Shown here: piece after piece, positions 2,375 to 18,633 of the stretch
Layout: the number at the start of each line of letters is the position of its first letter
How positions within the stretch are numbered: position 1 is the first letter of the stretch
NCBI GenBank assembly: GCA_947172415.1
Contig: OX359192.1
Span: 1,118,501 to 1,182,500, forward strand
From: Chondrosia reniformis
Taxonomy: Eukaryota; Porifera; Demospongiae; Chondrillida; Chondrillidae
DNA: 64,000 nucleotides
Direction: 5' to 3'
The notes under the pieces: model-generated
Databases searched by the model: none
What the model was told of the DNA's origin: nothing
Seen by the model: only the letters and a program-made list of their open reading frames with translations
Position numbers and translations under genes: made by a program

Positions 2375-3751
2375 TTAATATCTTATGATGGGATAAAGAT
2401 GACTGGGACAATGATCACAACAGATTTGTTTTTGATAAGGTATGAGTCCTAGGTTAGATGATAAGGTGGAAAAAGTGCTCTTAGCCAAGATTAAATATTC
2501 AGAACTGGCTAACAACCAAACATCTACTAAGGCGTTGTAAAAACTCTTCTGACATTTCGCAATAGAAATATGTTTTGCTAAAGCCACATCCTTTTGTGTG
2601 TGAATGGCTTCAATGTCAGTACTTACAATCTTGGAGCTACCAAAATTAATTCTTGCATATTTCTTTAGCTCAGTGGAATCCGTTATCAACAAAAGAGGAA
2701 AATCAATGTCATGGTCTTGCATGAACCTTAGAGCACAACGAATTTTTCTAGCCCAGGTCACTTTATTCTGCGCTAAGCGTCCCACACGTTCTTTCCTCCC
2801 ATTGGAAAAAAGTCCGGTACGAACGTGTAAAGAAACATATTTGCTTGGAAGGCCCGGCTCAATTTTAAACGCTTCAATTTGCTTAGAGAGAGCGTCGGGT
2901 TGACCAAAGTCAAGTAGTAAATGCGTAAGCAAAGCTGAAATGAAGACAAGGATTCGATCATCTTGATGAGGAAGTTGTCTAAATAGGAACATCTCATTTG
3001 TTCCACATTGCTCGTTAAAGTGAATATCTACATACACATCACCTAATAGAACCTTTGTTTTGCTAAACATGGCCTCACAATCCAGTTTCTGATGTGGCCC
3101 TTTCCGAATATGCAGCCTCCGATCTAGCTCATCAGTGACCCTCCAAGGAATTACATTTGGCTTCCAAAGTAGGATAGTTTCGTTACACTGAGGAACAAAA
3201 TCGGCGAGGAAAAATCGTCTTGATAATATGGAAAGTAGGAAGGCAATTCTAGTATTCGCTACCATGCCGCCAATACCTATATACTTGGCTTTCCCCCGCT
3301 GAACGTGCATCCATTTAATGTCACTGTTAAATATTTCTGTGTCTCCATCCTTAATTCTCTTGTCAATATCTTTAACCCACTGAATATAATCATATATCTT
3401 CAACACAACTTGCCGAAAAGAACTATTTTGTTGGGCAGAGCATACTACCTTATTGCACTCCTCTATAAAATCTTGGCGTACTGGTAGAGAACTTTTGGAG
3501 TCATTTAGTAACCCTTGGCACAACATCACACAATCGTCTTTCCTTCCTTTACTAACAGGAAAGCTTGGAAAGGTTGGAGGTTCAAAGTTATCTGCAGATG
3601 GCTGAATAGACGCTGCATGTACGACCGTCTTGCCGCGATCGATTAGGGCTTTTGAACTTGAGGAACTTGGAGCTTGAAAACTAAATATAGCAATCAATGT
3701 TATTGCTATAGTTAGATAAAATAATATCTGCAGTGTCTTCATTGCAAACAT
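2375..3751 (-). CDS. Fucosyltransferase-like type II membrane enzyme, intact copy
   Basis: This is an intronless ORF of 458 residues. I start it at the ATG at 3751, which opens the peptide MFAMKTLQILFYLTIAIT; the upstream extension has only a non-ATG start. Residues about 5-25 form a single N-terminal membrane anchor, followed by a Ser-rich stem and a cysteine-containing lumenal domain, the layout of Golgi glycosyltransferases. The segment GIGGMVANTRIAFLLS and the later HVRTG resemble the nucleotide-sugar loop and H-x-R-x-G motif of fucosyltransferase superfamily enzymes. The C-terminal FYNALVDVWLLASSEY is also typical of that fold. Donor and acceptor sugars cannot be read. The copy at 6084..7710 is nearly identical across the lumenal domain. 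A TA-flanked MITE sits 43 bp upstream of the start, so promoter input may differ between copies. The family assignment is by motif only. Confidence 0.6.
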   Translation of the reverse strand: MFAMKTLQILFYLTIAITLIAIFSFQAPSSSSSKALIDRGKTVVHAASIQPSADNFEPPTFPSFPVSKGRKDDCVMLCQGLLNDSKSSLPVRQDFIEECNKVVCSAQQNSSFRQVVLKIYDYIQWVKDIDKRIKDGDTEIFNSDIKWMHVQRGKAKYIGIGGMVANTRIAFLLSILSRRFFLADFVPQCNETILLWKPNVIPWRVTDELDRRLHIRKGPHQKLDCEAMFSKTKVLLGDVYVDIHFNEQCGTNEMFLFRQLPHQDDRILVFISALLTHLLLDFGQPDALSKQIEAFKIEPGLPSKYVSLHVRTGLFSNGRKERVGRLAQNKVTWARKIRCALRFMQDHDIDFPLLLITDSTELKKYARINFGSSKIVSTDIEAIHTQKDVALAKHISIAKCQKSFYNALVDVWLLASSEYLILAKSTFSTLSSNLGLIPYQKQICCDHCPSHLYPIIRY

Positions 3752-3794
3752 ATGCTGGTATAATTGGGGCGAGTCTGAGCGAGCCACCTATTTA

Positions 3795-6083: not shown

Positions 6084-7710
6084 TTAATATCTTATGATGG
6101 GATAAAGATGACTGGGACAATGATCACAACAGATTTGTTTTTGATAAGGTATGAGTCCTAGGTTAGATGATAAGGTGGAAAAAGTGCTCTTAGCCAAAAT
6201 GAAATATTCAGAACTTGCTAACAACCAAACATCTACTAAGGCGTTGTAAAAACTCTTCTGACATTTTGCAATAGAAATATGTTTGGCTATTGCCACATCC
6301 AATTGTGTGTGAATGGCTTCAATGTCAGTACTTACAATCTTGGAGCTACCAAAATTAATTCTTGCATATTTCTTCAGCTCAGTGGAATCCGTTATCAGCA
6401 AAAGAGGAAAATCAATGTCATGGTCTTGCATGAACCTTAGAGCACAACGAATTTTACTAGCCCAGGTCACTTTATTCTGCGCTAAGCGTCCCACATGTTC
6501 CTTCCTCCCATTGGAAAAAAGTCCGGTACGAACGTGTAAAGAAACATATTTGCTTGGAAGGCCCGACTCAATTTTAAACGCTTCAATTTGCTTAGAGAGA
6601 GCGTCGGATTGACCAAAGTCAAGTAATAAATGCGTAAGCAAAGCTGAAAGGAAGACAAGAATTCGATCATCTTGATGAGGAAGTTGTCTAAATAGGAACA
6701 TCTCATTTGCTCCACATTGCTCGTTAAAGTGAATATCTACATACACATCACCTAATAGAACCTTTGTTTTGCTAAACATGGCCTCACAATCCAGTTTCTG
6801 ATGTGGCCCTTTCCGAATATGCAGCCTCCGATCTAGCTCATCAGTGACCCTCCAAGGAATTACATTTGGCTTCCAAAGTAGGATAGTTTCGTTACACTGA
6901 GGAACAAAATCGGCGAGGAAAAATCGTCTTGATAATATGGAAAGTAGGAAGGCAATTCTAGTATTCGCTACCATGCCGCCAATACCTATATACTTGGCCT
7001 TCCCCCGCTGAACGTGCATCCATTTAATGTCACTGTTAAATATTTCTGTGTCTCCATCCTTAATTCTCTTGTCAATATCTTTAACCCACTGAATATAATC
7101 ATATATCTTCAACACAACTTGCCGAAAAGAACTATTTTGTTGGGCAGAGCATACTACCTTATTGCACTCCTCTATGAAATCTTGGCGTACTGGTAGAGAA
7201 CTTTTGGAGTCATTTAGTAACCCTTGGCACAACATCACACAATCGTCTTTCCTTCCTTTACTAATAGGAAAGCTTGGAAAGGTTGGAGGTTCAAAGTTAT
7301 CTGCAGATGGCTGAATAGACGCTGCATGTACGACCGTCTTGCCGCGATCGATTGAACTTGATGAACTTGGAGCTTGAAAACTAAATATAATGGAATAAGG
7401 ATGTCTTCTAACTGCGTCGAACTTATCTTTGTAAAGGTTCATTTTTCGACTTTTAGAGCGTCTAGAGACGCAGTTTTTTTCTCGATTCTTCTGTCTGCCA
7501 AACGTTTCGACCCTGGGGGTCTTCTTCAGTGACTGAAGAAGACCCCCAGGGTCGAAACGTTTGGCAGACAGAAGAATCGAGAAAAAAACTACGTCTCTAG
7601 ACGCTCTAAAAGTCGAAAAATGAACCTTTACAAAGAAAACTAAATATAGCAATCAATGTTATTGCTATAGTTAGATAAAATAATATCTGCAGTCTCTTCA
7701 TTGCAAGCAT
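6084..7710 (-). pseudogene. Fucosyltransferase-like gene, second copy, N-terminus disrupted
   Basis: It is nearly identical to the gene at 2375..3751 from the stem to the stop codon. The original start and membrane anchor are still present at 7649..7710 (MLAMKRLQILFYLTIAIT), but a 259-bp insertion at 7390..7648 separates them from the catalytic part. Because 259 is not a multiple of three, the original frame runs into a TAG inside the insert. The catalytic ORF stays open and could restart at an ATG in the insert (MNLYKDKFDAVRRHPYS), giving an enzyme domain without its Golgi anchor. The lumenal part shows few substitutions and no stops, so the insertion is young or the ORF is still used. I call it a probable pseudogene; a soluble product is possible. 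Confidence 0.65.
7390..7648. mobile_element. Fold-back insertion with 14-bp direct repeat
   Basis: Most of the insert (7431..7634) is a near-perfect inverted repeat with arms of about 100 bp meeting at about 7533 with almost no loop. The host word GAAAACTAAATATA occurs at 7376..7389 and again at 7635..7648, while the intact paralog has it once. That marks the insertion and its target duplication. There are no coding motifs. Confidence 0.75.
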
Positions 7711-17265: not shown

Positions 17266-18633
17266 TTAGTTAAGTGTATCTCTCCAGTGGCATTCTGCTA
17301 ATGCTTCCTGTAGAAGCCCTTTGATATTCACTTCCTGTTTTTCAGTCATGACCTCCATCCATCCCAAAAGCATTCTGTAGCACTGTTCAACAGAATTGGA
17401 TGGATAGCTAGATTGAATGTCCTCTACCTTAGTCTGCGAAATGGTAAGTTTTGCAGCTAAACTTGGCCATTGGTCTTTAACAGTCTCAGCCACAAATCTT
17501 AGTCTCTCATTAGATAGTTCCAGGTCAGTGAGAACAGTCTTGTGCAATTCATCATTTCCATATGGTGCTATACCCAGCAAAAGTGTACAGAGATCACAAA
17601 GATTTGAGAAAAGTGGCATCTTTATTGTTTTTTCAAGAGAATTGGATGTAAGATGGTGCTCAAAGGTCTGAATGCTAAGATTGAACGACATTTTTCCCTT
17701 TAAATACTGTGGAATTAAGGCTGAGTTACTCTGCCTGTTCACAAACACTGGGATACAACGATCCAGAATGCCTTGTTCCGCCAATAAATTATTTATGGCC
17801 AATGAGTTAAACTTACCATACCTCATGTTTATTTCCAAGCTTTTTCCTGAAGAGAGAGATCGGGAAAGCCCTTCTGAACACACCATAAGCACATGTCCTC
17901 CTCTCTTGCAACAAAGTTTTATTTTATTGATGACCCATTGGGAACAATCAGAAAGGTGAACCATATCCTCTTTAATATCCACTTCACAGTTGACACCAAG
18001 TGAAGACAGATGCTTTGTGAGTTGAAAAATATCTCTACATTCATCTACTTCGTGTTGCCGGGCATACAACAGAAATACAGGACCACCAACTGTAACAGAA
18101 ACATAAATGAATAGTAACCACATCTAGTCTGACGTCAGACAAGCCACATCAGACTAAGAGCATTGATGACATACTAAATAAATAGACACATGTTACAGTC
18201 ATATACAAACAATAGTGTTCCTCCTGACTAGAGAAATACGGCAACGACTAACAAGACTAACAAAGAACGCTATTGCAAAACGTGGTTGCCTACCCAAGTG
18301 TGTAACATCCATACGCTCCCGATTACCCGAATACATTTCTTCTGGCCGATACAACTCAGCTTCTTCCTCTGTAGCTCCTAATAACATGGCCAGGTCCTTC
18401 TGACTTGACTTTAGCAAGCATCTTCTAAGGAGTTCCAATCTTGTTGGGCCTTTTGTAGGGTAAATCTCGTAGAGAAAGTATTCTGCCTTTTCCTGTTTAG
18501 ATATTATAACGTTCATTATTTTATCATATTCATTATCAGTGATCAATCGCTCTTTCTTCATGTATTCAGCCGCATCTTCCATCTTCATTCGCTGAATCAA
18601 GGCAGGCAGATATTTTCTCATTACATCCGCCAT
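17266..18633 (-). CDS. CARD-SEFIR-Death adaptor
   Basis: Two exons, 18294..18633 and 17266..18089, join in frame for 387 residues. Exon 1 encodes a CARD-like helical domain (about residues 1-90, with LITDNEYDKIMNVIISKQEK and RLELLRRCLLKSSQKDLAML). Exon 2 opens with a SEFIR domain: box 1 VFLLYARQHEVDECRDIFQL and box 2 HVLMVCSEGLSRS, as in IL-17 receptors and Act1/TRAF3IP2. The C-terminus (about 293-383, with WPSLAAKLTISQTKVEDIQ and YRMLLGWMEV) reads as a Death domain. There is no signal peptide or membrane segment, so it should be cytosolic. Known families suggest it links a SEFIR receptor to CARD and Death partners; that role is inferred. I know of no standard animal adaptor with all three modules. 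The upstream 599 bp hold no other gene. Confidence 0.85.

Follow-up and report, generated by a model that had tools for sequence, protein, structure and literature searches.

A two-exon gene predicted to join CARD, SEFIR-like and Death domains in the demosponge Chondrosia reniformis

Gene structure and domain content

The gene lies on the minus strand of a 64,000-nucleotide stretch of the Chondrosia reniformis genome (C4:1118501-1182500; hereafter the window), and its two exons, when joined, translate across the intron as a single frame of 387 codons plus a stop. The start codon of exon 1 stands in the context AAAAATGGCG, and an in-frame stop precedes this ATG by 13 codons; the intron carries the donor motif GTAGGC and the acceptor motif TTACAG. 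An original prediction, made from the window's letters, had placed a CARD, a SEFIR and a Death domain in one two-exon protein here; its coordinates were right. The features, in window coordinates, are as follows.

18294-18633, minus strand: exon 1 (340 nt), with the start codon, the CARD and a short linker (residues 1-113 plus one base); from the frame and splice sites
18376-18627, minus strand: CARD, residues 3-86; Pfam PF00619, E=5.8e-8, 33.1 bits against a cut-off of 23.9
18090-18293, minus strand: phase-1 GT-AG intron of 204 bp between CARD and SEFIR-like domain; from splice-pair scoring, and present also in the duplicate on contig C6
17266-18089, minus strand: exon 2 (824 nt), with the SEFIR-like domain, a linker, the Death domain and the stop codon; from the joined frame, and open in the other copy (P0001)
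17659-18078, minus strand: SEFIR-like domain, residues 118-257; matched by a profile of bacterial SEFIR domains, not called by PF08357
17275-17505, minus strand: Death domain, residues 309-385; Pfam PF00531, E=2.2e-7, 31.3 bits against a cut-off of 22.6

To place the exon junction among its competitors, every GT-AG pair in the interval spanning 40 bp or more, 214 in all, was scored with generic weights. The proposed pair (18294/18089) scored 5.6, third among the 214 and highest among the 35 that leave at least 370 residues open. The two pairs above it (7.5 and 7.2) share an acceptor at 18223, on the minus strand inside the intron, and are predicted to end the protein after 129 or 118 residues with the CARD alone; this acceptor scores 5.2 against 3.3 for the one at 18089, and its pairing with the donor at 18294 yields the predicted 129-residue CARD-only form. 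The fourth-ranked pair (5.3; donor 18327, acceptor 18089) would take 11 residues off the linker, with all three domains preserved. Given the third-ranked score, it is the frame, and not just splice strength, that supports the exon join, and the locus may also yield a CARD-only splice form. We infer that both exons are carried on one mRNA, and we consider it probable that CARD, SEFIR and Death form the architecture of one predicted protein.

Within the 387-residue protein both death-fold domains pass their curated Pfam cut-offs, as anticipated for PF00619 and PF00531, whereas the third profile expected to match, SEFIR PF08357, gives no match at E<=10 to either the whole protein or the isolated domain. 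The nearest solved relatives of the Death domain are FADD (E=1.4e-4) and RIPK1 (E=1.8e-4). A Pfam scan placed no enzymatic domain over its cut-off in the protein. The expectation that the protein is soluble was borne out by a search for segments resembling transmembrane helices, which found none (maximum 19-residue hydropathy 1.43); together with the lack of an FnIII match, this value led us to reject an IL-17 receptor identity for the gene.

Identity of the middle domain

Since PF08357 does not call the middle domain, its assignment depends on a SEFIR profile of our own, built from seven bacterial domains; loci that pass the PF08357 cut-off occurred in 8 of 398 bacterial genomes (of eight loci, L160 was left out as being in the wrong frame with its locus off-centre, and L159 was cut to its first part). 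This profile gave the isolated middle region (residues 113-270) 18.8 bits (P=5.2e-8) and the full protein 17.2, with a match spanning profile positions 13-136 of 167 and thus most of the middle domain. On the same scale, L001, a sponge SEFIR domain recognised by Pfam, scored 19.8 bits, a related gene on contig C11 17.5 and exon 1 2.0. None of 20,000 shuffled sequences reached 18.8 bits (best 13.1), and across 981 background ORFs the gene's own ORF scored 17.0 and the next best 7.1. When the profile included L001, the middle domain scored 25.5 bits and hhalign gave 92%.

The SEFIR profile also scores two sponge TIR domains (L034 at 19.7 bits and L033 at 11.3), and it therefore recognises the SEFIR/TIR superfamily and is not fully SEFIR-specific. 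A TIR profile was made from six bacterial TIR domains (eight loci minus L164 and L167, which were in the wrong frame and off-centre), with three sponge TIRs held outside it as test cases. It scored the middle domain at 0.0 bits, whereas the three sponge TIRs reached 56.5, 38.1 and 28.5 and L001 reached 12.7. This 0.0 decided the choice of SEFIR over TIR; the Pfam TIR family likewise had no match in the 387-residue protein. Aligned features follow the order seen in the bacterial members: a start at VFLLYA, a helix, a G-V followed by a D, a W followed by a strand ending in VCSEGL, then IPV and IPQYLKG. By this test with an independent profile, the middle domain would be a divergent member of the SEFIR branch of the SEFIR/TIR superfamily. 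The stretch VCSEGLSRS (window 17857-17883, minus strand; residues 183-191) has a C-x5-R spacing that resembles a phosphatase loop, probably by chance.

Structure predictions were of low confidence, with a mean pLDDT of 47.4 for exon 1 alone and 39.8 for exon 2 with a three-row alignment. Scans for relatives found none in bacterial genomes with L001 as query, and none in viral contigs with exon 2. In plasmids, tblastn gave no match with the middle domain of the window gene; the L001 query drew 49 Enterococcus records, with E of about 0.8-0.9 among the matches listed, nearly all of them named as TIR-domain proteins.

Other copies, relatives and candidate partners

A large protein collection holds both exons a second time, as P0001 (exon 2) and P0003 (exon 1), on one contig of 9,027,519 bp, presumably from the second haplotype; the deposited data for Chondrosia reniformis include an alternate haplotype (PMC12181767). 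P0003 differs from exon 1 at 2 of 109 residues. P0001 is open throughout and differs from exon 2 at 4 of 273 exonic codons, plus one change at the junction codon. Taken over the whole copy, differences fall in 6 of 382 exonic codons versus 4 of 42 codons read from the intron (Fisher p=0.011), a comparison of small numbers from which the exon-2 junction codon, which also differs, is excluded. Apart from these near-identical copies, the collection, searched by a method that needs shared five-residue words and similar length, returned only the C11 relative, P0002.

The genome (117,379,552 bases in 15 contigs) also contains a broken duplicate on C6 (7819.9-7821.0 kb; L010:2386-3549), with CARD exon, intron and SEFIR-Death exon in the same order and several frame-breaking insertions and deletions. 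We had considered this copy as an intronless retrocopy, which would have been proof of splicing, and rejected that reading when the intron proved to be retained. In a local alignment, in which the first 63 bases of exon 1 remain unaligned, mismatches number 27 of 224 in exon 1, 35 of 189 in the intron, 37 of 734 in exon 2 and 43 of 239 downstream; a global alignment gives 61 of 287, 55 of 196, 37 of 734 and 74 of 249, respectively. Exon 1 thus differs by 12% (local) or 21% (global), the intron by 19% or 28% and exon 2 by 5%. The drop to 5% coincides with the predicted exon-2 borders and so supports them, while the divergence of exon 1 is intermediate or near the intron level, depending on the alignment. 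Either decay began in the CARD part of the duplicate or gene conversion refreshed exon 2; the CARD appears less guarded there, which counts mildly against its being essential in that copy.

Relatives with intact frames differ in layout. The PF08357 search of the genome lists one place only, at C4:8085.8 kb (L012:2591-3828), where a Death frame (27.5 bits against 22.6) is followed by a SEFIR frame in adjacent exons; if these two exons are joined, the product would have the Death-SEFIR layout of non-amniote ACT1, described as DD-SEFIR (PMC7190641). The nearest unbroken relative found is the C11 gene P0002 (L011:4079-5053, C11:1041.6-1042.6 kb; 29% identity, E=2.2e-6), a single open frame with a SEFIR-like domain and then Death (17.5 bits from the SEFIR profile, 38.7 bits for Death), no CARD in frame and a SEFIR part that Pfam does not call. 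The genome thus appears to hold three or more candidate SEFIR-type adaptors with unbroken frames, in differing layouts, one of them with a CARD. A survey of demosponges reports one SEFIR sequence in the text and tabulates two (PMC12909245).

A genome search with the IL-17 cytokine family (PF06083) gave 13 matches at E<=1, 11 of them over the Pfam cut-off and 8 of the 13 on C14; six of the 11 were re-scanned as proteins and all passed (E 1.5e-12 to 1.4e-9). By eye, the frames show the cysteine pattern and N-terminal hydrophobic stretches. The loci, of which the best eight are L024-L031, are:

C11:5423819
C13:5747733
C14:913959-939771
C14:130516
C14:342793-347873
C5:111266
C3:2435126-2436581

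IL-17-family cytokine genes thus look expanded in this sponge. Two surveys give zero IL-17 genes for the one sponge examined, Amphimedon (PMC8353272, PMC4517768), and the former mentions an Amphimedon IL-17 domain deposited in Pfam. On the receptor side, a genome search with PF16578 (IL17R_fnIII_D2) came back empty, with no match in its control sequences either, and the C11 SEFIR region used as a query matched only itself and no receptor.

Candidate partners for the CARD are present in the same genome, among them a BCL10-like CARD gene (L016:1417-1908, C4:8944.1 kb), whose best solved match is BCL10 (E=9.1e-11), and a CARD-caspase gene. The CARD family search listed at least 43 entries, a lower bound because the window gene's own CARD is absent from that list. 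In the window itself, a minus-strand frame at 1-918 that runs off the edge combines SH3, a RING-like domain and a TRAF-type zinc finger, and may be a signalling neighbour. Two long minus-strand frames at 2375-3787 and 6084-7652, about 3.7 kb apart and near-identical by eye, look like a recent local duplication; Pfam found no match in the frame at 2375-3787.

Proposed function and significance

The link from IL-17-type signalling to caspase/NF-kB-type assemblies that was originally drawn for this gene stands in part: the 11 IL-17-family matches and the Death-SEFIR locus of Act1 layout speak for it, while the search for an IL-17 receptor, which gave no match in its controls either, found none. 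The setting in an early animal held, in that the host genome fits a demosponge. With many IL-17-family genes and an Act1-layout locus, a SEFIR pathway likely exists in this sponge, which would make the IL-17 link more plausible than could be known from the window.

Judging from sequence, we lean slightly towards a soluble scaffold that would dock via its SEFIR domain and recruit CARD and Death partners in IL-17-type signalling. The SEFIR domain would bind another SEFIR protein, either an IL-17-type receptor or the genome's own Death-SEFIR Act1-like protein; CARD-CARD stacking would bring in BCL10-like or CARD-caspase partners, and Death-Death stacking partners of the FADD, RIPK or IRAK type. 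CARD and Death would nucleate separate assemblies, giving two output arms from one adaptor. Such a protein would work in the manner of Act1 or MyD88, which pair a receptor-family domain with Death, and would also have a CARD arm like that of RAIDD or BCL10. The wider claim, that sponges have a working IL-17 system with ligands and an Act1-type Death-SEFIR adaptor, and that in this sponge at least one CARD-SEFIR-Death protein alone wires a SEFIR receptor directly into both CARD (BCL10/caspase) and Death assemblies, we put forward only tentatively.

Known adaptors share parts of this layout. RAIDD/CRADD is a CARD-Death protein, with the same N-terminal CARD and C-terminal Death and without a SEFIR between them. 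MyD88 (Death-TIR) likewise carries a receptor-family domain and Death in one adaptor, but it has a TIR domain and no CARD, whereas the window gene has a SEFIR-like domain, which scores 0.0 bits with the TIR profile, and a CARD. The C11 gene shares SEFIR-Death and differs in being one open frame without a CARD. Non-amniote Act1/CIKS (TRAF3IP2) is also a soluble adaptor with SEFIR and Death (PMC7190641), ordered Death then SEFIR and lacking the CARD that leads the CARD-SEFIR-Death order of the window gene. In Placozoa, another non-bilaterian lineage, a MyD88-like protein combines SEFIR and DD; the passages that describe it mention no CARD, which there accompanies TIR in other proteins (PMC6321704). 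SEFIR with Death in one adaptor was therefore already known, and what appears new is an N-terminal CARD combined with a C-terminal position for Death; among the matches listed from the open-licence PMC literature, no description of a CARD-SEFIR-Death protein was found.

The best-surviving alternative accepts the same protein and places it outside IL-17 signalling, with the SEFIR domain acting for some other receptor or for a sensor inside the cell, and the whole being a general CARD/Death scaffold. It is consistent with the empty receptor search (whose controls gave no match either), with a SEFIR domain so divergent that Pfam does not call it, with the occurrence of SEFIR in bacteria (8 of 398 genomes) and with Placozoa, where SEFIR-DD and TIR-CARD proteins are reported together with a SEFIR transmembrane protein described as without clear receptor features (PMC6321704). 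The many IL-17-family genes and the Act1-layout locus in this genome argue against it, and we regard it as unlikely.

Less likely still is that the locus makes two products, a CARD-only transcript (from read-through into the intron or use of the 18223 acceptor) plus a SEFIR-Death transcript that begins at a methionine at 18123, with the joined form scarce or absent. Both exon frames do stay open beyond their splice sites, as stop-to-stop frames of 157 and 285 codons, the longer of which holds the ATG at 18123; the acceptor at 18223 outscores that at 18089 and features in both of the top-ranking pairs among the 214; a single exon encodes SEFIR-Death in the C11 relative, with no CARD in its frame; and exon 2 is the part of the C6 duplicate that has changed least. 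Against this, none of the 35 pairs that preserve the long frame outscores the 18294/18089 junction, the other copy is changed more often in the codons read from the intron (4 of 42) than in the exonic ones (6 of 382), and a phase-matched GT-AG intron of 204 bp exactly between the domains would have to be a coincidence.

A decoy or brake that occupies SEFIR, CARD and Death partners and so damps signalling is improbable: decoys occur among CARD proteins, and Pfam places no enzymatic domain over its cut-off here, but three docking domains, two of which belong to the output type, suit a positive scaffold no less well. It is very improbable that the middle domain is phosphatase-like or TIR, since the weak match to the dual-specificity phosphatase family over the C-x5-R stretch (DSPc, E=0.028-0.1, 12.8-14.7 bits) lies far under its cut-off of 33.5 and covers 37-38 of 133 profile positions, and since the SEFIR profile, although it also gives one sponge TIR 19.7 bits, aligns over most of a domain that scores 0.0 bits with the TIR profile; we rejected both identities.

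In other animals CARD, SEFIR and Death usually sit on separate immune proteins, and the predicted sponge protein, if it exists, would place an IL-17 receptor-docking domain and two kinds of death fold in one chain. It would do so in a host rich in IL-17-family genes, against none reported for Amphimedon in the surveys cited above (PMC8353272, PMC4517768). In C. elegans, ACT1, IRAK and MALT1 occur in one complex, and an ancestral role of MALT1 in IL-17 signalling has been raised as a possibility (PMC7190641). A sponge protein bridging SEFIR and CARD/BCL10-type partners would make this MALT1/IL-17 idea testable outside Bilateria and, if the wider claim above is true, would put a BCL10-MALT1 arm beside IL-17 signalling near the animal root without relying on separate adaptors.
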